A stretch of DNA of 64,000 bases from Lactobacillus kullabergensis. Its GTDB lineage: Bacteria > Bacillota > Bacilli > Lactobacillales > Lactobacillaceae. The notes under the pieces are model-generated. The model searched no databases, was not told the DNA's origin, and saw only the letters and a list, made by a program, of their open reading frames with translations. The stretch lies in assembly GCF_000967195.1 (NCBI RefSeq), contig NZ_KQ033871.1, positions 323,384 through 387,383 of the forward strand, in the 5' to 3' direction. Position numbers and translations under genes: made by a program. Below are positions 6,510-31,478 of the stretch, piece by piece. The first letter of the stretch is position 1, and every line of letters begins with the position of its first letter.

Positions 6510-7529
6510 ATGACAGTAATGAAAGATTTTGACGTAAAAGAATATTTGCAAAATGGTAAAGATGTATATGCTCAAAGAGAAAATATCGAGAAATTAGCCG
6601 ATAAATTATCTAAAAAAGAGTATCAAAACATTGTGATGATTGGTATCGGTGGAACGTGGATGGAATGGTATCCAGTTGCAGAATACTTGCATCATTTGTC
6701 TGATTTTCCAGTTTACTTGGAAAATGCTGGTGAATTATTGGTTAAAAAGGATATTAACTATCTCACTAATAAGTCTTTGGTTCTTACTTCTTCGGATTCA
6801 GGTGATACCAAAGAAATTGTAGCAGCGGTGAAATACTGCAATCAAAAAGGAATTGATGTTTATGGTTTTACCAAAAATCCAGAATCTGCCTTAGGAAAAT
6901 TGTTAAAAGAATCAATTAATGGTTCACTAGCTGAATGTGAAAATGCCTATTTAATGTACTTTATGCTAACTTTACGTATCTATCAAAATTGGGGTTACTA
7001 TAAAGATTACGACCGCTGGGCAGATCAAATGAAACAACTTTATCCTAATCTATTAAGATTCAGAGAAGAATTTGAGCCAAGAGCGCAGAGTATTGCGCGT
7101 AAATATTACAATGCCCCATTAACTATGACTGTGGGCTCAGGGATGCTGTGGGGTGAAACATGCATGTTTTCAATGTGTATCTTGGAAGAAATGCAATGGG
7201 TTCGCACACGACCTGTTACTTCAGCTGACTTTTTCCACGGTCCATTAGAATTGGTTGATGATACTTTACCAGTATACTTAATCAAAGGCGAAGACGAATA
7301 TCGTGCGTTAGATGAACGAGTAGAACGCTTTTTGCCAAAGCATACAAAGAGTTTTGAAGTCTTTGACACTAAAGACTTTGTATTTGAAGGAATTGATGAT
7401 GACTTTAGGCAAATTTGCTCCCCAATGGTTATAACATCGCTTTTAACTGATCGTTTAGCATCATGGTATCAACAATATACTGGTCATGACCTCAATTTCC
7501 GTCGCTACTATCGTCAATTTGATTATTAA
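6510..7529 (+). CDS. SIS-domain deglycase, FrlB/GfrF-like (fructoselysine-6-phosphate type)
   Basis: 339 residues with two SIS domains. The C-terminal half contains SADFFHGPLELVDD, then GEDEYRALDERVERFLPK, closely matching the FrlB/GfrF family, which splits fructoselysine-6-phosphate into glucose-6-phosphate and lysine. It closes the operon after EIID with AGAAAGGAAA before the ATG. A PTS plus one GfrE-like and one FrlB-like SIS protein is the composition known for glucoselysine and fructoselysine uptake. A different amino-acid adduct or an amino sugar remains possible. Cytoplasmic. Confidence 0.72.
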   Translation: MTVMKDFDVKEYLQNGKDVYAQRENIEKLADKLSKKEYQNIVMIGIGGTWMEWYPVAEYLHHLSDFPVYLENAGELLVKKDINYLTNKSLVLTSSDSGDTKEIVAAVKYCNQKGIDVYGFTKNPESALGKLLKESINGSLAECENAYLMYFMLTLRIYQNWGYYKDYDRWADQMKQLYPNLLRFREEFEPRAQSIARKYYNAPLTMTVGSGMLWGETCMFSMCILEEMQWVRTRPVTSADFFHGPLELVDDTLPVYLIKGEDEYRALDERVERFLPKHTKSFEVFDTKDFVFEGIDDDFRQICSPMVITSLLTDRLASWYQQYTGHDLNFRRYYRQFDY

Positions 7530-7597: not shown

Positions 7598-8371
7598 TCA
7601 ATAGGTTTCTTTTTCACCTAAAATACCACCAAGAGTAAATTGAAGATTCAATTCTTCTGATATAAGATAACTTTCCGTATATTCAACAGCATTACTTTGT
7701 TCATCAAAGCCATGATAAACAATGTAGTACAAAGGACTACCCTTCTTAACTTTTAGTATACGTGCTTCTTTATCTAAAGCAGGAATAACTTGCACTGACT
7801 GAGAAACATCAATTGGTCTATGTTGTTTTGATTCCATATAGTCATAAAGACTAATATTCTTAAAATCTATTTTTGCAGCATCCGGAAAAAGCTTGTCTGG
7901 TAAATAATTGTATTCTATAGCAAAAGGTTTGTTTTTTATTCTACGAATTCTATGTAATGCAAAGACTTTATCATTTCTACTTTGTTTAAGTTTATCATTA
8001 AGAAATAAGTTGCTACTTATAATTTCTTTTCCTATCACATCACTGAATAATTTTATACCTTTTTTAGTTAGAAGTTCAGAGATACCTAAATTTTCATTTT
8101 TATCTGTAAATGACAAATTAAAATAAATACTGTTTTTATCTTTGTTATTAGAGGTAACATATGTTCCGCTACCTTGTTTACGAGTTAATAAACCTTTCTT
8201 TTTTAAGGCATCAATAGCTTTTTTTACAGTCATACGATTAATGCCATACTTTTCTGCAAGCACGCGTTCACTAGGTATTTTAGCCCCTGGAAGAAATTCT
8301 TTATTTAAAATTTTCTTTTCCAGAGCATTTTCAATTTGAATATATAAGGGGGCGTGGAATAAATTGTTCAT
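7598..8371 (-). CDS. GntR-family transcriptional regulator (HutC/UTRA type)
   Basis: 257 residues. The winged helix-turn-helix occupies about residues 8-75 (PSERVLAEKYGINRMTVKKA) and the rest is a UTRA ligand domain, which in this family binds a phosphorylated sugar or amino sugar. It is convergent with the gfr-like operon and downstream of a second GntR gene on the same strand, only 32 bases apart, so the two may be co-transcribed. It probably controls the neighbouring PTS, responding to the phosphorylated substrate. TGAGGA precedes the ATG. Confidence 0.85.
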   Translation of the reverse strand: MNNLFHAPLYIQIENALEKKILNKEFLPGAKIPSERVLAEKYGINRMTVKKAIDALKKKGLLTRKQGSGTYVTSNNKDKNSIYFNLSFTDKNENLGISELLTKKGIKLFSDVIGKEIISSNLFLNDKLKQSRNDKVFALHRIRRIKNKPFAIEYNYLPDKLFPDAAKIDFKNISLYDYMESKQHRPIDVSQSVQVIPALDKEARILKVKKGSPLYYIVYHGFDEQSNAVEYTESYLISEELNLQFTLGGILGEKETY

Positions 8372-20407: not shown

Positions 20408-20809
20408 ATGGCAGAAAAAGAATTAATTTTAATTAGTCATGGTAAAATGGCAGAGGGCGTAAAAGCCAGTGCCGAATTAATTATGGGTAAGCAAGAACAT
20501 GTGCACACAGTTTGCTTGCTTCCATCTGAAGGCCCAGATGATTTTAAGTCAAAATTTGAAGAGCAGATTTCAGGAATGAATATTGAAGACATCACTGTTT
20601 TTGCCGATTTAATGGGTGGAACCCCAGCTAATGTTGTTAGTCGCATGATTATGGGTGGTCAAAAGATTCACTTAATCTCGGGAATGAATTTACCACTTGT
20701 AATCGAGTGGCTTAACAGTCAAATGAGCGGTGCAGAATCAGATTTTGTGACTGCTGGTAAAGCAGGAATTGTCGATGTTAACGAAATGTTGTCTAGTATG
20801 AAAAAGTAA
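20408..20809 (+). CDS. agaF: PTS EIIA, mannose family, aga type
   Basis: 133 residues. ISHGKMAEGVKAS holds the phospho-histidine (His11), and FADLMGGTPANVVSR plus GMNLPLVIEWL are the conserved EIIA-Man motifs. It passes phosphate from HPr to the EIIB encoded at 18.1 kb and completes this PTS. It is the last gene of the operon and is closed by the hairpin inside the first copy of the 52-bp repeat. Confidence 0.88.
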   Translation: MAEKELILISHGKMAEGVKASAELIMGKQEHVHTVCLLPSEGPDDFKSKFEEQISGMNIEDITVFADLMGGTPANVVSRMIMGGQKIHLISGMNLPLVIEWLNSQMSGAESDFVTAGKAGIVDVNEMLSSMKK

Positions 20810-20821
20810 TTTATGTAAATG

Positions 20822-20873
20822 AATAACGTCTAGTTTTGAAAAAGACTAGGCGTTATTTTTTGTTTATATTAAA
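20822..20873. repeat. 52-bp direct repeat, left copy, containing the agaF terminator
   Basis: All 52 bases are identical to 25213-25264. The repeat contains a hairpin (AATAACGTCTAGT with ACTAGGCGTTATT, 13 bp with one G-T pair) followed by six T on the + strand, a good terminator for agaF. The two copies enclose the complete beta-glucoside cassette. Confidence 0.9.
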
Positions 20874-20891
20874 GATCAGAATGAAGGTGAA

Positions 20892-22793
20892 TTAATATAT
20901 TGACAATGACGTTACCGTATCTCCAAAATTAGTTTCTTTTACGGTTGGTTCAACTGGATCTTTAACTTTATCCTTTGAAGTAATTAGTACCAATACTGTC
21001 GGATCTTTACCTGCATCAGTAATTTGTTTTATATCCATTTTTCCAATTAATTGACCACGCTCAACTTTATCTTTTTCCTTTACTAAAATGTCAAAAGGCT
21101 TCCCCTTAAGCTCAACAGTGTCAATACCCAGATGAAGCAAAATATCCAGTCCATTATCTGATTTTAAACAGATGGCATGTTTAGTTTTAAAAATTGAACT
21201 AATCGTACCGTTTACTGGTGAATAAATTTTTCCATTAGAAGGTATAATAGCAAACCCGTCCCCTAAGATTTTTTGAGCAACCATATCATCATTTACTTGA
21301 TTTAAGGGAATTACTTTACCCGAAACAGGTGCTGAAAAGTTTTCAACAGCCTTAATAGGTCTAGAAATTGAGTTTTCTTTTTTTACAATGATTTTTGTAT
21401 CATTTTTAAACAAAACATTTTGATCTCTGTTTTTGTCTGCCTTAAGCAAGATCGTTGTAATTATAAAGCTTGAAATGATACCAGTTAACCAGGTTATTAT
21501 CCCACAGGTAAAGTTTAAAGTGGGGTTCTTACCTACAAAGTAAGAAATTAAAGAGATAAAACCGGGAGCCATTAATGCACCTTGTTTTATATGTAATATT
21601 CCACCTACTAGTCCTCCAATAGCACCGCCTGATATTGCTCCAATTAATGCACGACGATAAGGTAAAAGAAAGCCGAATATAGACGGTTCAGTTATTCCCA
21701 TCAAACCAGTAAAGCCTGCAGAAAATCCTTCTCCCTTGGTAATTTTTTTCTTACTAAAAACAGCGATAGCAATTGCCGCAGCTCCCATAGCAGCGTTACT
21801 TGGTAATGCTGCCGGATAAATAAGTGTGTCATAGCCCAATTCAGAAACATTATTCATTGCTATAGGTACAAATCCCTTATCAATGCCAAACATTACTAAA
21901 ATAGGATTTAACGCACTATATAGCGTGAAAGCAAGCCAGTTTGCTTTTGCACTCAGCCAATTAAAACAGCCTGCAATAGCAAAACTAATATTATTGCTGA
22001 TAGGTCCAATAATAACAAGTGTCAAAGGAGCTGCAATTAATATTGAAAGTAAGGGAGTAAAAAAGTAAGTAATTTCTTTTGGCATAACTTTATCGAATAA
22101 CTTATATATTAAAGCTAATAAAATCACACCTAAAATAGAGGTAAGCAACGTTCCATTATATTGCATTTTTGGTAAATGAATACCTAAAAAACTCAAACCG
22201 GATACATTGTTAATATCACTAAAAGTTAAGATTGCACCTAAAAATGCTCCCATGGCTGCAGGAATTTTCATTTTTATTGCACTTTGGAATCCTACAAAAA
22301 TAGGTATATAGTAGAACCCTGCTGAAGCTATGCTAGTCAGGACTATAGCTGTACCGCTTTTGGGATTCATGCCGAAAAATGTTTTACACATATTTAATAT
22401 TGCTAATAAAAATCCTGCTGCTACAATAACGGGCATGATAGGTAAAACAATACCGCTGATGAAGTCAAGTACTTTAGATAAAGCATTTTTAAAAGTTAAT
22501 TTTTCAGATTTATCCTGTTTTAAATTTACTTTTTCATTTAAGTGCAGTTCTGGTACTAATTTGCTGTAATACTCGTTAACCTTTGTTCCTATGAAACTTT
22601 GAATTTCTTGACCTTTTATAACAACCCCCTTAATTCCGTCAACTTTCTTTAATTTTTCTTGATCAACAAGATTTGGATTGTTTACTACAATCCTTAACCT
22701 AGTTGCACAATGATATATGTCAGAAATATTATCTTTACCGCCAACTGAATTTAAAATATCAGTAGCAATATTTTTGAAATTTTCTTTAACCAT
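20892..22793 (-). CDS. PTS beta-glucoside-specific EIIBCA permease
   Basis: 633 residues in the order EIIB (about 1-85, phospho-Cys29 in IYHCATRLR), EIIC (about 100-460, many membrane helices, GFTGLMGITEPSIFGFLLPY) and EIIA of the glucose type (about 490-633, LLHLGIDTVELKG with the active histidine). This is the BglP/BglF family, which imports and phosphorylates aryl- or cellobiose-type beta-glucosides. It overlaps the 3' end of the phospho-beta-glucosidase gene by eight bases, so the two are translationally coupled. Confidence 0.9.
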   Translation of the reverse strand: MVKENFKNIATDILNSVGGKDNISDIYHCATRLRIVVNNPNLVDQEKLKKVDGIKGVVIKGQEIQSFIGTKVNEYYSKLVPELHLNEKVNLKQDKSEKLTFKNALSKVLDFISGIVLPIMPVIVAAGFLLAILNMCKTFFGMNPKSGTAIVLTSIASAGFYYIPIFVGFQSAIKMKIPAAMGAFLGAILTFSDINNVSGLSFLGIHLPKMQYNGTLLTSILGVILLALIYKLFDKVMPKEITYFFTPLLSILIAAPLTLVIIGPISNNISFAIAGCFNWLSAKANWLAFTLYSALNPILVMFGIDKGFVPIAMNNVSELGYDTLIYPAALPSNAAMGAAAIAIAVFSKKKITKGEGFSAGFTGLMGITEPSIFGFLLPYRRALIGAISGGAIGGLVGGILHIKQGALMAPGFISLISYFVGKNPTLNFTCGIITWLTGIISSFIITTILLKADKNRDQNVLFKNDTKIIVKKENSISRPIKAVENFSAPVSGKVIPLNQVNDDMVAQKILGDGFAIIPSNGKIYSPVNGTISSIFKTKHAICLKSDNGLDILLHLGIDTVELKGKPFDILVKEKDKVERGQLIGKMDIKQITDAGKDPTVLVLITSKDKVKDPVEPTVKETNFGDTVTSLSIY

Positions 22794-24225
22794 TTTTTAA
22801 TGCCCCGCTAAAATATTGGTCAATAAAGTCTCTGTACCAGTAATAACTTTTTTTAGGTGTTAAGGCTAAATTATTTTTAAAGTCAACTCGAATGAGTCCA
22901 TACCGCTTGTCGTATCCATTAATCCAACTATATAAGTCCATAGCCGACCAATGATAATATCCATGTACCTTAACACCTTCGCTTTTGGCTTTTAAAAGAT
23001 AGTGCAGAAACTTGGATGTCAATTCAATCCTTTTATCATCTTTAACAAATCCCTTTGAGTCTGCTGTTTCATAGCCACCATGTCCATTTTCAGTAATCAA
23101 AATAAGATTAGGATTATAACTTTGTTGTATTTCTTTGAGAGCCGTATACATAACTCTTGGTAGTTCTTCACGCCCCCATTTATTTCTTTTTACGTTTGGG
23201 TCAAAGGAGGTTTCAAAGACATTTTTTATTCGTATTCCCTCAGTAATCTTGCTTTTGCAACCTTTATTGTTGTGGAAAACTTTTGTTTCTTTATCTGTTC
23301 CATCGGTTAAATATTGACGATTATATAGATTTAATCCTAAATAGTCTCCTTTACCTTCAGCAAAAATTTTCTGATCGATTTCTTTTTTATACAACATACA
23401 GTTAAAGTCATTAATGACTTTTTCAGTTTCTTCTGGCATTTTTCCCAATAATGCAGGACAAAGTATTTGCCTATTATAAAAGAAGTCACCAAATAAATGA
23501 ACTTTTTTGATATTCTTAGTTGTAGGATCGATTTCAACGTTACCGTTGTCATGTACAATACCAATAATGCCATCAATTTTTAAATCATGGAAAATCCTAA
23601 CTGCCTTAGCACTTGCCAACATTAGATTATATTGATATTGAAAATACGACTGGAAATCTAATTTCCTATTAGGTGGATAATTACCAACAATATTGACGCA
23701 GTAACTATAGTATCTGGGTTCATTAATTGTGCACCAAATCTTCACTCGGTCTCCAAAATTTTTAAAACAAACTTCGGCATAACTGGCGAAGTAATCAGTT
23801 AATTTTCTGTTAAGCCATCCACCTTGAATAGCTAATTCATAAGGCAAATCGTAATGAAACAAAGAAACATTTGGTTCTAACCCCTTTTCAATACAGTAAT
23901 TGATTACACGGTTATAGAACTCTATACCTTCCTGATTAACTTCACCTACACCATTTGGAATAATTCGATCCCAAGCAATTGAAAATCTAAAGGTGTTTTG
24001 ATGGTCAGCAGCGAGTAAATCAATGTATTCTTTATATTTATGAAAAAAATCGGCTGACACATCTCCATTAACATGATTAATATTTAAATTACTCTTATGA
24101 TTAAAGTAATCCCATTCACCAAGTCCTTTCTTCTCTTGATCCCAGGCTCCCTCGCACTGATAAGCTGCGGTTCCAGAGCCCCACAAAAAGTCTTTGTCTT
24201 TAAAAACCTCTGAAAACTTTCTCAT
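22786..24225 (-). CDS. 6-phospho-beta-glucosidase, glycoside hydrolase family 1
   Basis: 479 residues, full GH1 length. The acid/base lies in CTINEP (Glu169) and the nucleophile in LITENG (Glu379). It hydrolyses the 6-phospho-beta-glucoside delivered by the adjacent PTS to glucose-6-phosphate and an aglycone or glucose; 6-phospho-beta-galactosidase is a less likely alternative, given the partner permease. It is the first gene of the bgl transcript, with GGAGGAG before the ATG and a cre site about 30 bases upstream. Confidence 0.9.
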   Translation of the reverse strand: MRKFSEVFKDKDFLWGSGTAAYQCEGAWDQEKKGLGEWDYFNHKSNLNINHVNGDVSADFFHKYKEYIDLLAADHQNTFRFSIAWDRIIPNGVGEVNQEGIEFYNRVINYCIEKGLEPNVSLFHYDLPYELAIQGGWLNRKLTDYFASYAEVCFKNFGDRVKIWCTINEPRYYSYCVNIVGNYPPNRKLDFQSYFQYQYNLMLASAKAVRIFHDLKIDGIIGIVHDNGNVEIDPTTKNIKKVHLFGDFFYNRQILCPALLGKMPEETEKVINDFNCMLYKKEIDQKIFAEGKGDYLGLNLYNRQYLTDGTDKETKVFHNNKGCKSKITEGIRIKNVFETSFDPNVKRNKWGREELPRVMYTALKEIQQSYNPNLILITENGHGGYETADSKGFVKDDKRIELTSKFLHYLLKAKSEGVKVHGYYHWSAMDLYSWINGYDKRYGLIRVDFKNNLALTPKKSYYWYRDFIDQYFSGALKNG

Positions 24226-24253
24226 TAATTCTCCTCCATTAGTTTTTATAAAT

Positions 24254-24269
24254 TTGATAGCGCTATCTA
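24254..24269. promoter_or_regulatory. cre site upstream of the bgl genes
   Basis: TTGATAGCGCTATCTA matches the cre consensus at 15 of 16 positions and contains the perfect palindrome GATAGCGCTATC. It lies in the promoter region of the phospho-beta-glucosidase gene. Confidence 0.75.
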
Positions 24270-24285
24270 CATTGCTATATTAGCA

Positions 24286-24330
24286 ACAAAAAAAAGAGCA
24301 AGTGGTTCAAATTTTGAACCACTTGCTCTT
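24286..24330 (-). terminator. Terminator of the RpiR gene
   Basis: A perfect palindrome at 24294-24330 (AAGAGCAAGTGGTTCAAA with its complement) forms an 18-bp stem. On the minus strand it is followed by at least eight T, so it ends the RpiR transcript before the bgl promoter. Confidence 0.88.
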
Positions 24331-24346
24331 GTACTAAGGGTCAGGT

Positions 24347-25132
24347 TTAATGATATGAATTAACATAACGTAGAAAAATCTGGTCAAACAAATATGTAAT
24401 ACCATATTTGCCATAAATGCCCAGATAATCTTCTGAAAAGCTTTTTTGACTAATATAGAACACATCATTATATGAACTTGCTAATTTTTTATTACGATTA
24501 CCAGTGATAATCATTTTATCTCCGGGAAGTTCATTTATGAGATCGTTTATCACCTCAGCATATTTTCCAGAGGTTGAAACCGTAAATAATAATGAATTTG
24601 GTTTTAAAGATTTAAGGTATTTACTAGTCCTGTATTTATGGTCAAGCACAACAATTATTTTATTTGCGTATATCATTTCTTGTTGAAATTTTACTAACGT
24701 ACTACTTGTATTGTTAGCACATAACAAAATAACCTCATTATGATTATGAATTTTATCAACGATTTGATTGAGTTCAGTTACACCAAAAACAGAGTTAATA
24801 TCATCGAGCATATTTTTAATTAAATTTGTTAGTTTAACATTATTTGTTTGATAGTCCTCTTTTGTTCTATGTCTAATATCACTGGGGAAGATAATCTTAG
24901 AAAAAGAGGTTTTTAGATTCTCTAAACTTGAATATCCTAATTTCTCACAAAATCTTCTGACCGCAGAACGGGAAACATATGCATTATCCATAATTTCGTT
25001 AACAGTAATCTGGTCCAAGTGGGAAATGTTTTTTACTAAATATGATGCTATTGCATGATTATTACTATCATAATGAGAATTAATTAGTTCTGTTAATGAA
25101 TTTAATATTCCTAAGTTATTTGCATTGATCAT
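24347..25132 (-). CDS. RpiR/MurR-family transcriptional regulator of the bgl cassette
   Basis: 261 residues: N-terminal RpiR helix-turn-helix (VNEIMDNAYVSRSAVRRFCEKLG) and a C-terminal SIS sensor domain (about 105-255), which binds a sugar phosphate. It lies immediately upstream of the bgl genes on the same strand but has its own terminator. In many Firmicutes beta-glucoside operons are controlled by an antiterminator; here this RpiR protein probably replaces it. Confidence 0.87.
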   Translation of the reverse strand: MINANNLGILNSLTELINSHYDSNNHAIASYLVKNISHLDQITVNEIMDNAYVSRSAVRRFCEKLGYSSLENLKTSFSKIIFPSDIRHRTKEDYQTNNVKLTNLIKNMLDDINSVFGVTELNQIVDKIHNHNEVILLCANNTSSTLVKFQQEMIYANKIIVVLDHKYRTSKYLKSLKPNSLLFTVSTSGKYAEVINDLINELPGDKMIITGNRNKKLASSYNDVFYISQKSFSEDYLGIYGKYGITYLFDQIFLRYVNSYH

Positions 25133-25212
25133 TCTATTTTCACCTTGCTAAAATCCGCTCTCTACCATTTTAAACTTAGTATAAAAAATATTACAAATAG
25201 TGATATGGCTAA

Positions 25213-25264
25213 AATAACGTCTAGTTTTGAAAAAGACTAGGCGTTATTTTTTGTTTATATTAAA
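25213..25264. repeat. 52-bp direct repeat, right copy
   Basis: Identical to 20822-20873 over 52 bases; the identity stops abruptly on both sides. The stem-loop lies just beyond the stop codon of the convergent hydrolase gene (stop at 25266-25268), where it can act as that gene's terminator hairpin. The copies are 4,391 bases apart, start to start. Confidence 0.9.
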
Positions 25265-25265
25265 T

Positions 25266-27284
25266 CTAAAACAGTATTTGGATTGTCTCTAATGGTGCTA
25301 GAGCTTCATCAATAAAAGCAATGTCATTTTCAACACGAATCTGAACTTGAGTTTTCCTGACAGTATTATTGACCTTTCTAATAATTGTAGCTTCATTACT
25401 CTTTAATGGTTCTCCTAAGTGCCATTTTAGTTGTTGATAGTCGTCTAGAGTAAAGTTGGCTAGCCAAACTTTTTGACCATTGTTTTCAACTAACAGTTTA
25501 ACATTAGGCATATCTACTAAATAGTCTACTGGTTTGATACTATCAAGCATTTGCTGCAACAAGCCTTGTTTATAGGTAGTAAATTGCGATTCCCAACCAT
25601 AGCGCAAGTCTTGATCCATCGGGAGGACAACAATATGCTGGTCGATAACAGCCATAACGTTACCCAATTTTTCATCAACTGCGTTATAGGCAAATGACCA
25701 CACTTTTACAGAACTTTGCGGTTGATAATCAATTTTCAAATAGTTTCCGGTTTGCTGCAACATAGTAATTCGCGGGCTTTTAACACCATCAACTGTCTGT
25801 CCATCTGCCTGTTCAAAAACCTGATAATTTGAACGAACGGGGTGCCACTCGGCTTTTTCAATATGCAGTAAATTACCTAATTTTCGGTCTAATAAAACTT
25901 GGACACTTTCACCATCAAGCAATACAAAATTGTTTTTAACTAATTCAGTGACTTGTGCATTTGTTAAGTTGCGTAAAAGTTGGCCAGAAATAGCAACTAC
26001 TTCATTTTTCAATGAAGTTTTTTTACTAATAGGCAGAATTGTTGTAGCAAAACCAAAGGCTCCCAAAAGACTGGCCCAATTCTTTTCGTGAGGTAACAGC
26101 TCCTCGACATTCTTACCAGTTTTAGTTTGCAAATAGTAACTAGAGTCTTGATCAACTAAAACTCTAATGCCACGCAGATGGTCTATCGGCAGACGATTTT
26201 CTAATAGTTGGTTAACAAACGGTTTAATTTGAGCGAGCATTTCTGCATAGTGCCAACTATCATTGATACCGTTGCCCATCATGTCAAATAAATTAAGCAG
26301 AATTCCCTGACTTCCGATTAGGGCAGAAGTAATAATTTGAAATGCGGTAAATGAAGTTGATTTAACTAAGGGTGAGTACATATAGCTTTCTAATTCAGGG
26401 TATAGCTCGGCATCTTCTCCTAAAAATGCAGCGGTAATGCGGGTATATTCTTCGAAATACCTGCCATATTGTAATGGAGCAACTTCATTATAAGCAGGTA
26501 AATGAGGCCGAGCCACCTTGGGATGTCCTTTTCCAGCCTGGGCCTTAAATAAATTGTCCCAATCACGACCTTCAAGAGCATGCCAATTAGGATAGGAAGT
26601 CATTTGTGCCAGATCTGTCTCAGGACTAACCTTGTGAACAGCCTGCTCAATTATATGCTCAGTTTCAATCATCTCTTGACGAGCCTGATCAAGGTAAACT
26701 TGTCTTTCTTTAGTAGGTTTCCCCGGTTGCAACATCTTTTTAACAAATTCTGCGCGTGTTTCCTTTTTACCTAATTTCTCATTATAAAGTTGCATGTGAT
26801 ATTCACAAAAACACATTAATTTAAGTGGTGAATGGTTGTAATGACGAAAATCATCTTCCAGCCATAACCTGCGGGGATGGATACTGGCATATTGTGCGTA
26901 TGTATTTGCTAAATATTTGCGCCATGTTGGATCCGCTGGACAAGCCATATCCTTGGCTTTATTACCATCAAGATCAACAAAAGTATTAAAGCCAATTTCA
27001 GGATTAACTTGGTAGCCTCGATCTGAATGCATAATGGTTGTCCAAGGATTTAAACTAGTTGTTACGCCTATCTCAGATAACTTTTTTTGTAACGGCTTAA
27101 TTGCATCTAACCATACTTGAGTCTCAGCTTTAGTTAAGTGGCTATGGTTTAGTTCTTCACCATTTATAAAAAAAGCGACATCATCAATTTTGCCTTTTTT
27201 AACAAATTCAATTAGTTTTTCGTCTTTAGTTGGAGTGTTTGCTCTGGGATCAAGCATGTATCTTAAAGTGTAAATAAAAGTCAT
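25266..27284 (-). CDS. Unrecognised probable glycoside hydrolase (TIM-barrel type)
   Basis: 672 residues without a signal peptide. I do not recognise a characterised family. The N-terminal 350 residues read like a TIM-barrel glycosidase of clan GH-A or GH42-like type: DVAFFINGEE, GVTTSLNPWTTI, a Trp-rich region around residue 145 with RLWLEDDFRHYNH and MCFCEYH. A middle part (about 370-520) resembles a glutamine-amidotransferase-like domain, followed by a beta-sandwich end. The EDDFR glutamate/aspartates are candidate catalytic residues. It is divergent from the GH31 gene, 201 bases apart, so both probably act on the same glycan, intracellularly, since neither has a signal peptide. Confidence 0.5.
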   Translation of the reverse strand: MTFIYTLRYMLDPRANTPTKDEKLIEFVKKGKIDDVAFFINGEELNHSHLTKAETQVWLDAIKPLQKKLSEIGVTTSLNPWTTIMHSDRGYQVNPEIGFNTFVDLDGNKAKDMACPADPTWRKYLANTYAQYASIHPRRLWLEDDFRHYNHSPLKLMCFCEYHMQLYNEKLGKKETRAEFVKKMLQPGKPTKERQVYLDQARQEMIETEHIIEQAVHKVSPETDLAQMTSYPNWHALEGRDWDNLFKAQAGKGHPKVARPHLPAYNEVAPLQYGRYFEEYTRITAAFLGEDAELYPELESYMYSPLVKSTSFTAFQIITSALIGSQGILLNLFDMMGNGINDSWHYAEMLAQIKPFVNQLLENRLPIDHLRGIRVLVDQDSSYYLQTKTGKNVEELLPHEKNWASLLGAFGFATTILPISKKTSLKNEVVAISGQLLRNLTNAQVTELVKNNFVLLDGESVQVLLDRKLGNLLHIEKAEWHPVRSNYQVFEQADGQTVDGVKSPRITMLQQTGNYLKIDYQPQSSVKVWSFAYNAVDEKLGNVMAVIDQHIVVLPMDQDLRYGWESQFTTYKQGLLQQMLDSIKPVDYLVDMPNVKLLVENNGQKVWLANFTLDDYQQLKWHLGEPLKSNEATIIRKVNNTVRKTQVQIRVENDIAFIDEALAPLETIQILF

Positions 27285-30482: not shown

Positions 30483-31478
30483 ATGAAAACAATTTCTGCA
30501 GCAGTTGCCAAACATATGGCAAACTTGTCAACAACTGATGGTATAATCAGTGCTTTGGCAATCGATCAACGTGGCTCTTTGAAAAAGATGTTAGCAGAGG
30601 CTGCTAATAAACCTGCTGATGAAACAACTATTGTTGATTTTAAAAAAGCAGTTTCCAGTGAGTTAACTCCTTACGCTTCATCAATTTTGACTGACCCGGA
30701 ATACGGTTTGCCGGCAACTAAAGTTAGAGACAAAAATTGTGGATTATTACTTTCTTATGAAAAAACCGGCTATGATACCACCAAACCTGGCAGAATGCCT
30801 GACTTAATTGCTAATCAGTCTGGATTAAGGATTAAAAATGAAGGCGGAGATGCCATTAAGTTTTTGGTTTACTATGATCCTGATGAAGGTCAAGAAATTA
30901 ATGATAAAAAACAAGCTTTCGTTGAGAGAGTTGGTGCAGAAGCAAAAGCGAACGAATTACCATTCTTTTTGGAAGTTCTGACTTATGATGCCAATATTGC
31001 TGATGCTAAGAGTGAAGAATTTGCGAAAGTTAAAGCTGATAAGGTCTTGAAGACAATGAAAGAATTTTCAAAGCCTGAATATGATGTAACTGTACTTAAA
31101 GTGGAAATTCCATTTAATATCAAGTTTGTTGAAGGCTTTAATGGGGACAACAACGTTGTTTACACTCAAGAAGAAGCTAAGGATCTGCTTAAAAAGCAGT
31201 CTGATATAACTGATTTGCCTTATATTTTCTTATCTGCTGGTGTAACCAGTGAAGAATTTATTGCTGAAATTAAAATGGCTGAAGAAGCCGGTGCTGACTT
31301 CAACGGCGTTCTTTGCGGCCGTGCTACTTGGAAACCAGCTATCAAGCCATTTGCTGCTGAAAGTGAAACAGCCGGTAGAAAGTGGCTATCAACTCACGGC
31401 AGAGAAAATATTGAAAACTTAAATGAGGCACTTAAAGGTGCCAAGTCTTGGCGTGATAAGTTAGAAGTTGCTGACTAA
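30483..31478 (+). CDS. lacD: Tagatose 1,6-bisphosphate aldolase
   Basis: 331 residues, close to the usual LacD length of about 325-327. The class I aldolase of this family cleaves tagatose-1,6-bisphosphate to dihydroxyacetone phosphate and glyceraldehyde-3-phosphate. Family motifs are ALAIDQRGSLKKML at the N-terminus, VTVLKVEIPFN with the Schiff-base lysine region, and NGVLCGRATWK. AAGGAGA precedes the ATG. It stands alone, downstream of GH31 and ending at a terminator, and completes the tagatose route fed by LacAB and AgaS. Confidence 0.95.
   Translation: MKTISAAVAKHMANLSTTDGIISALAIDQRGSLKKMLAEAANKPADETTIVDFKKAVSSELTPYASSILTDPEYGLPATKVRDKNCGLLLSYEKTGYDTTKPGRMPDLIANQSGLRIKNEGGDAIKFLVYYDPDEGQEINDKKQAFVERVGAEAKANELPFFLEVLTYDANIADAKSEEFAKVKADKVLKTMKEFSKPEYDVTVLKVEIPFNIKFVEGFNGDNNVVYTQEEAKDLLKKQSDITDLPYIFLSAGVTSEEFIAEIKMAEEAGADFNGVLCGRATWKPAIKPFAAESETAGRKWLSTHGRENIENLNEALKGAKSWRDKLEVAD

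Follow-up and report, generated by a model that had tools for sequence, protein, structure and literature searches.

Within the 64,000-nucleotide stretch of DNA analysed here (the window, which belongs to the genome designated G000), a three-gene beta-glucoside module lies between the two copies of a perfect 52-bp direct repeat. Probably, though far from certainly, a recent, one-step insertion placed the module in the one terminator that separates agaF, the last gene of an N-acetylgalactosamine (GalNAc)/tagatose operon, from the convergent gene hyd, and duplicated 52 bp of host DNA in the process. The swapping of sugar cassettes is a main route of adaptation in lactobacilli, and the mechanism by which such cassettes are joined to their sites is unsolved. 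Here the mechanism becomes testable, because the event that the locus appears to record is young, its two junctions can be read, close relatives have the site without an insert and three more genomes have it filled with other genes; the locus is a rare fresh scar for asking how such bacteria gain sugar genes.

The duplicated terminator and the empty sites of relatives

The elements that carry this interpretation are as follows.
20822..20873, no strand assigned: left repeat copy; predicted agaF terminator on the + strand; relatives' empty sites match its left flank
20874..25212, - strand: inserted DNA, 4339 bp, with a G+C fraction of 0.32 vs 0.37-0.38 in two flanking segments; absent from the site in relatives
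25213..25264, no strand assigned: right repeat copy; adjoins hyd at its 3' end; relatives' empty sites match the right flank of this copy

The first-pass annotation of this DNA had described the two stretches as identical and sharply bounded, and so they are, the match being perfect over 52 bp (start-to-start distance 4391) and the adjoining bases differing on both sides (left neighbours G and A, right neighbours G and T). Base composition predicts approximately 5e-21 exact repeats of at least 52 bp in the window, and the repeat is not attributable to chance. An exact scan for direct repeats of at least 18 bases found only one other in the window, a duplicated tRNA-Gln (57 bases). Across the 2.1-Mb genome the 52-mer occurs at these two places, with no third copy when up to three mismatches are allowed, and the notion of a common dispersed repeat, i.e. 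a terminator found at many unrelated sites, was rejected on this basis. Of 75 genomes of the genus, only G025 matched a consensus pattern of the repeat, at the corresponding site; this is a weak test, as the pattern exceeds the window's own copies by one base and so misses them. When folded alone, the first 49 bases of the repeat form, on the + strand, a 16-bp stem with a 4-nt loop followed by a U-run (-18.8 kcal/mol, z -7.4), and because of this stable stem-loop and U-run the repeat is, by modelling, a good candidate terminator for agaF. With flanks included in the folding, both copies extend to longer stems (left -24.3, right -22.1 kcal/mol). Folds of the - strand reach -9.9 and -12.0 kcal/mol with poor U-runs, and a terminator scan called the repeat on the + strand only.

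A search for agaF in the genus gave some match in 70 of 75 genomes and a match of at least 66 % identity in 32, and those 32 genomes, the window's own included, made up the survey of the site, with a 1.5-kb flank taken from each. A convergent agaF-hyd pair is present in 22 of them and a same-direction pair in two, while the remaining eight have no hyd within the flank. Among the 22 convergent pairs, 18 represent empty sites, with 62-152 bp between the aligned gene ends, and four are filled, with 4.3-5.6 kb between agaF and hyd (G000, G030, G053 and G067). Based on inferred names, the relatives include Lactobacillus laiwuensis (G030), Lactobacillus sp. W8174 (G025), L. huangpiensis (G019), L. 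kimbladii (G028), L. melliventris (G065), L. apis (G006), L. bombicola (G007) and L. hominis (G018). The unit is, as in a cassette, present or absent at one locus among close species, and far from being carried there by all relatives, it occurs at this site in 0 of the 21 other convergent-pair genomes.

A single, diverged terminator that can be aligned to the repeat is present at the empty sites of G025, G028, G019, G037 and G065, with 3-8 substitutions over 44-52 aligned bases and 1-8 gap columns; the hairpins in the more distant G006, G032 and G062 look unlike the repeat. The alignment with close relatives that the first-pass annotation had proposed has, in other words, yielded sites with a single repeat copy and without bgl genes, which support its suggestion of an insertion into a terminator with duplication of the latter, and the gene order of the relatives agrees with its statement that removal of the module together with one copy restores a continuous GalNAc/tagatose locus. 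The outer flank of the left copy is native (TTTATGTAAATG vs TTGATGTAAATA in G025), as is that of the right copy (TATATTAAATCTA vs TATATTAAATTTA in G025). Since both outer flanks match one empty site, host DNA has been duplicated around the insert rather than being brought in by it. The repeat differs from the terminator of G025 at 7 of 52 aligned bases, and the window's copies differ from each other at none of 52. Were the copies as old as the split from G025, approximately seven differences would be expected and the probability of none would be approximately 0.001; judging from these sequences, the duplication would be recent, i.e. younger than roughly 0.43 of the time since that split, an upper bound that presumes neither gene conversion nor constraint and is made rough by the pairing constraint on the hairpin.

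The same data bear upon the possibility that the cassette was ancestral at the site and was lost from the relatives through recombination between the repeats. Although direct repeats permit precise loss and the decay of such cassettes is evident from an rpiR remnant in G007, the 18 empty sites would call for many independent precise losses, the two copies have not diverged at any base, and both the cassette of G032 and the remnant of G007 stand at another position, beside a DeoR-type gene. An ancestral cassette is thus very improbable.

Other fillings of the site and the route of joining

Beyond what the first-pass annotation had described, other gene sets fill the site in three genomes, and G032 has a relative of the cassette at the opposite end of the aga operon, of which a remnant persists in G007. 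The filling in G030 consists of a fructose-type phosphotransferase system (PTS; EIIA, EIIB and EIIC), a 6-phosphogluconate dehydrogenase-like protein and a PRD regulator; that in G053 is a different beta-glucoside set, comprising separate IIBC and IIA, a GH1 enzyme, a metallo-beta-lactamase-superfamily protein and a CAT/PRD antiterminator; and that in G067 combines a P-type ATPase with a LytR-CpsA-Psr protein. No flanking repeat was found at these three fillings, the longest stretch shared by their 300-bp ends being 13 bp (G053). The agaF-hyd site is a recurrent, permissive landing spot within a known kind of sugar island; the lack of a repeat at the other three fillings implies that the duplication is special to the window's event and that the repeat is not a general attachment site.

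In the insertion that we favour, the module would have landed in the one terminator that lies between agaF and hyd, which converge there. The host DNA copied, with one copy remaining on each side, would be the hairpin plus the bases as far as the end of hyd, 52 bp in all. The joining may have been illegitimate and free of any recombinase, by way of template switching at a stalled replication fork or the fill-in of a staggered break, because there is no recombinase, no inverted repeat of at least 18 nt other than the terminator itself linking the ends and no repeat at the other fillings. This mechanism, although favoured, draws largely on the absence of alternatives, and the duplication route is unproven. 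As agaF would keep its terminator, the event would be cheap for that gene, and the 52-bp identity would permit rare precise loss by homologous recombination.

Several points weigh against this interpretation. No donor with these ends was found, so that microhomology at the junctions is not readable, and illegitimate joining seldom produces long duplications. On the - strand the repeat makes a weak terminator, so that any benefit to hyd is doubtful, and the 52-bp duplication is not the site's normal way of being filled. Additionally, identical neighbouring terminators can arise without a fresh insertion: in L. hominis a perfect 39-bp terminator repeat (L134:5723-5761 and 8048-8086; two copies in the genome) surrounds a GH3 gene, and since G067 has the same gene order at that place with two unrelated terminators, the identity in L. 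hominis arose without such an event. An argument from the start of the duplication at the base of the stem was dropped, as the fold that includes the flanks gives the left copy a longer stem.

Site-specific integration would also produce a defined insert with clean direct repeats at both ends, the terminator being the att core, the copies attL and attR, and the recombinase acting in trans or having been lost, as in mobilisable islands or integron cassettes. Integrase-type islands at tRNA genes are flanked by direct repeats of tens of bases, one copy of which restores the host unit, and integron gene cassettes consist of a gene unit followed by a hairpin site, repeated per unit. The insert resembles the former in its flanking direct repeats and the latter in its order of gene unit and then hairpin, and among lactobacilli the repeats around inserts behind tRNA-Gln (L. 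apis and G053) include the tRNA terminator and, in G053, the tRNA 3' end as well, which is the usual look of an integrase scar. However, the 4339-bp insert has no gene for a recombinase, integrase or transposase, there being room for three genes only, as the earlier statement that no integrase is present had it; with a layout of 18 bp, EIIBCA, GH1, rpiR and 80 bp, it leaves between the repeats and the outer genes little space for a decayed element. Unlike an integrase-type island, it targets the terminator of a protein gene, and its repeat is neither reused by the other three inserts nor found elsewhere in the genome; unlike an integron cassette, it lacks an array of sites, and the function of a terminator explains the hairpin. 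A 36-base core of the repeat has no exact match in viral contigs, and seven phage records match the repeat (E up to 10), each over less than 80 % of its length. The G032 and G037 relatives of the cassette match the 52-bp repeat no better than shuffled sequence does; in G201 a weak gapped match (L156:7995-8033; score 35 vs up to 32 in 23 own-genome chunks) sits 0.8 kb from rpiR and not at the end of the cassette. We therefore regard site-specific integration as unlikely. Nor does the insert look like an insertion sequence or transposon, as it has a 52-bp duplication, no transposase and, apart from the terminator itself, no inverted repeats of at least 18 nt linking its ends.

A further alternative, doubtful but deserving of attention, places the founding event elsewhere, with an unsampled strain that had the arrangement terminator-cassette-terminator passing it on either as a circle, through a single crossover (insertion-duplication), or by allele transfer via homologous flanks. 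Campbell-type integration yields exactly such a geometry, and the island is a mosaic, the tagatose aldolase gene (30483-31478) being 98.9 % identical to that of G028 vs 89.2 % for the aga block, a contrast in sequence identity that may be taken as a sign of recent exchange inside the island. In the available part of one report, an engineered Bacillus subtilis phage is laid out in the same way, with copies of a bidirectional terminator placed on both sides of a marker gene that stands between convergent genes (PMC8880864). Against this, the alternative shifts the problem to another strain, and a copy contributed by another species would be expected to differ from the host's own, whereas the two copies are identical.

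Cassette genes, their neighbours and their relatives elsewhere

The genes of the cassette and its neighbourhood are the following.
20408..20809, + strand: agaF-like EIIA (mannose-family PTS), left neighbour and final gene of the GalNAc/tagatose operon; hits to NCBIfam EIIA-man and AgaF, each under its cut-off
20892..22793, - strand: beta-glucoside-type PTS EIIBCA (bglP-like); Pfam PTS_EIIB, EIIC and EIIA_1; TIGR01995 at 543 bits, under the cut-off of 614.7
22786..24225, - strand: GH1 enzyme, predicted 6-phospho-beta-glucosidase; PF00232 at E 2e-119; TINEP and ITENG motifs
24254..24290, no strand assigned: palindrome TTGATAGCGCTATC, putatively cre-like or operator-like, upstream of the GH1 gene; seen by eye also in the G032 cassette
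24294..24330, - strand: rpiR terminator inside the cassette; perfect 18-nt inverted repeat, -26.3 kcal/mol, from the terminator scan; also in G032
24347..25132, - strand: RpiR-type regulator; PF01418 HTH_6; 29 homologues at E <=1e-20
25266..27284, - strand: hyd, a conserved 672-aa protein and the right neighbour, with no recognised family in Pfam, NCBIfam and PDB searches

Pfam domains and motifs agree with the first-pass identification of the three genes as PTS EIIBCA, phospho-beta-glucosidase and RpiR, the specificity of the enzyme being predicted. EIIBCA unites EIIB, EIIC and EIIA in one chain, as in PTSs of the bgl type, and carries EIIB Cys and EIIA His motifs, although it does not reach the NCBIfam cut-off; we take these motifs to be the phosphorylation sites and, likewise, TINEP and ITENG to be GH1 motifs. 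The best NCBIfam match of the GH1 enzyme is a 6-phospho-beta-galactosidase subfamily, under its cut-off. From its gene content, the cassette is predicted to import and split plant beta-glucosides, and by packing a transporter, a regulator and a catabolic enzyme compactly together it has the make-up of the sugar-utilisation cassettes of lactic acid bacteria. The claim that each gene has its own cre (catabolite-responsive element) site or terminator stood in part, as the rpiR terminator is very strong and the repeat is predicted to terminate on the + strand, but the repeat is weak on the - strand and the palindrome upstream of the GH1 gene is only cre-like.

In the label of a GH31-partner hydrolase that had been given to hyd, the term hydrolase was unsupported, there being no match to Pfam (E up to 10), NCBIfam (E up to 0.001) or PDB sequences (E up to 1). 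The protein is kept in lactobacilli at 66-95 % identity (17 loci) and, encoded beside a GH31 gene, may represent an enzyme family not yet described. Its nearest named relatives are in L. laiwuensis (95 %), Lactobacillus sp. W8174 (93 %), and L. huangpiensis and L. kimbladii (91 %), followed by those in an uncultured Lactobacillus and L. melliventris (87 %), in a list that may leave out records of the window's own genome. The host is likely a honeybee Firm-5 Lactobacillus, a species of the bee gut and perhaps L. kullabergensis.

As a portable unit, the cassette occurs with the same gene order in G032, on contig C94 of G037 and in G201. The G032 cassette lies 9-14 kb upstream of agaF in opposite orientation, adjoining the DeoR-type gene, and is 72.3 % identical to the window's cassette over 4154 bp, too little for G032 to be the direct donor, which was rejected. 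Because the aga block, too, is only 77.0 % identical between the two genomes, old vertical descent of the cassette with relocation is possible. In G007 the rpiR remnant is at the same DeoR-side place; in the window's own genome no remnant was found there among the scored candidates. Contig C94 of G037 (L039, 4527 bp), from a metagenome-assembled genome, holds only the cassette, is 99.1 % identical to G032 and may be misbinned. G201, of another genus in the same family, has the unit in another setting with 61, 74 and 68 % protein identity. Homologues of RpiR at E <=1e-30 were present in 2 of 397 genomes of a family sample, namely the window's own and G201, and the nearest named one is that of Bombilactobacillus folatiphilus. 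Some regulator clusters are on contigs of 4509, 4525 and 5334 bp, about the size of the cassette, a hint of assembly breaks at cassette ends that proves nothing. No relatives of the regulator were found in viral contigs, none of 221 plasmid records covers 80 % of the locus, and the plasmid matches, among the 20 listed, involve part of the GH1 gene or the EIIA domain only (66.8-68.2 %); a phage or plasmid vehicle was rejected on the phage, viral-contig and plasmid comparisons.

Similar neighbouring terminators and known sugar islands

Pairs of similar terminators were surveyed in 400 kb of G000 (G000:C2:200001-600000), in 200 kb each of G032, G053, G048 and G021, and in a further 767,616 bp from nine genomes around the sugar island. 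Among 115 terminator-like hairpins in the 400 kb of G000, the window's copies are the only pair scoring at least 0.70 (1 of 770 near comparisons and 0 of 11156 far); another score with a cut of 0.75 gave 1 of 328 near and 0 of 5304 far. A general excess of similar neighbouring terminators was accordingly not seen in G000, the one near pair being the window's repeat. Elsewhere, near pairs at or above 0.70 comprised one in G032 (24-26 nt, 1.4 kb apart), three in G048 (with spacings common to longer repeats), one in G021 (26 nt, 203 bp apart), those of L. hominis and L. apis, and short 22-nt hairpins in G055 and G051. The surveyed parts of G053, G025, G028, G030, G065 and G052 had none.

In L. 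apis, an exact 37-bp repeat containing the tRNA-Gln terminator (L256:4901-4937 and 6599-6635) surrounds 1661 bp with one orphan open reading frame (ORF; 254 aa), for which Pfam and PADLOC gave no significant match. Of 12 genomes examined, 11 yielded the downstream aminotransferase; nine of these have a GDPD gene at the place of the L. apis insert, without such a repeat in the window, and only G032 is empty there. Given the GDPD genes, the ancestral state at this place is not settled and the parallel is weaker. The insert of approximately 2.7 kb behind tRNA-Gln in G053 (G053:C1 ~1650970-1653695) has a single ORF of at least 80 aa between its repeats (140 aa) and is likely a decayed element; as its repeat includes the tRNA 3' end, the tRNA-Gln cases may be ordinary integrase scars. 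As parallels to the window, those from L. apis and L. hominis are partial, being weaker and partly contrary. It is conceivable, yet improbable, that terminators serve as landing pads in lactobacilli, with recombinase-free capture copying the resident terminator to both sides and with agaF, L. apis tRNA-Gln and L. hominis GH3 representing three stages; if this were true, each capture at a terminator would insulate itself and be precisely reversible.

The insert resembles the lifestyle-adaptation sugar cassettes of Lactobacillus plantarum, which, in the available portion of a review, are full units of transporter, regulator and enzyme that vary by locus and were likely acquired by horizontal transfer, with cellobiose and beta-glucoside cassettes replacing each other at one position (PMC3271238). 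That portion reports no flanking elements and leaves unanswered how the cassettes are joined, a question on which it urges further work (PMC3271238); the window's insert, unlike those cassettes, has a readable boundary in the form of the duplicated host terminator. For the honeybee Firm-5 lactobacilli, the clade to which the host belongs as judged by its nearest named relatives, the PTS islands are portrayed in the available text as extremely dynamic and hypervariable, and as differing in their PTS sets even between L. kimbladii and L. kullabergensis (PMC4449606). That description concerns variation at the level of the island, as opposed to the junctions, empty sites and terminator duplication considered here, and the words 'flanked', 'hot spot' and 'cassette' are absent from the main text as available (PMC4449606). 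According to excerpts of another study, the use of pollen glycosides differs between species (PMC8456714). A natural cassette bracketed by a copied terminator was not found, among the matches listed, by exact-word searches of titles and abstract openings in the open-licence literature. Apart from the sugar island, a CRISPR-like array with 36-bp repeats and a 66-bp period was noted by eye in the host chromosome at G000:C2 ~242470-243760.

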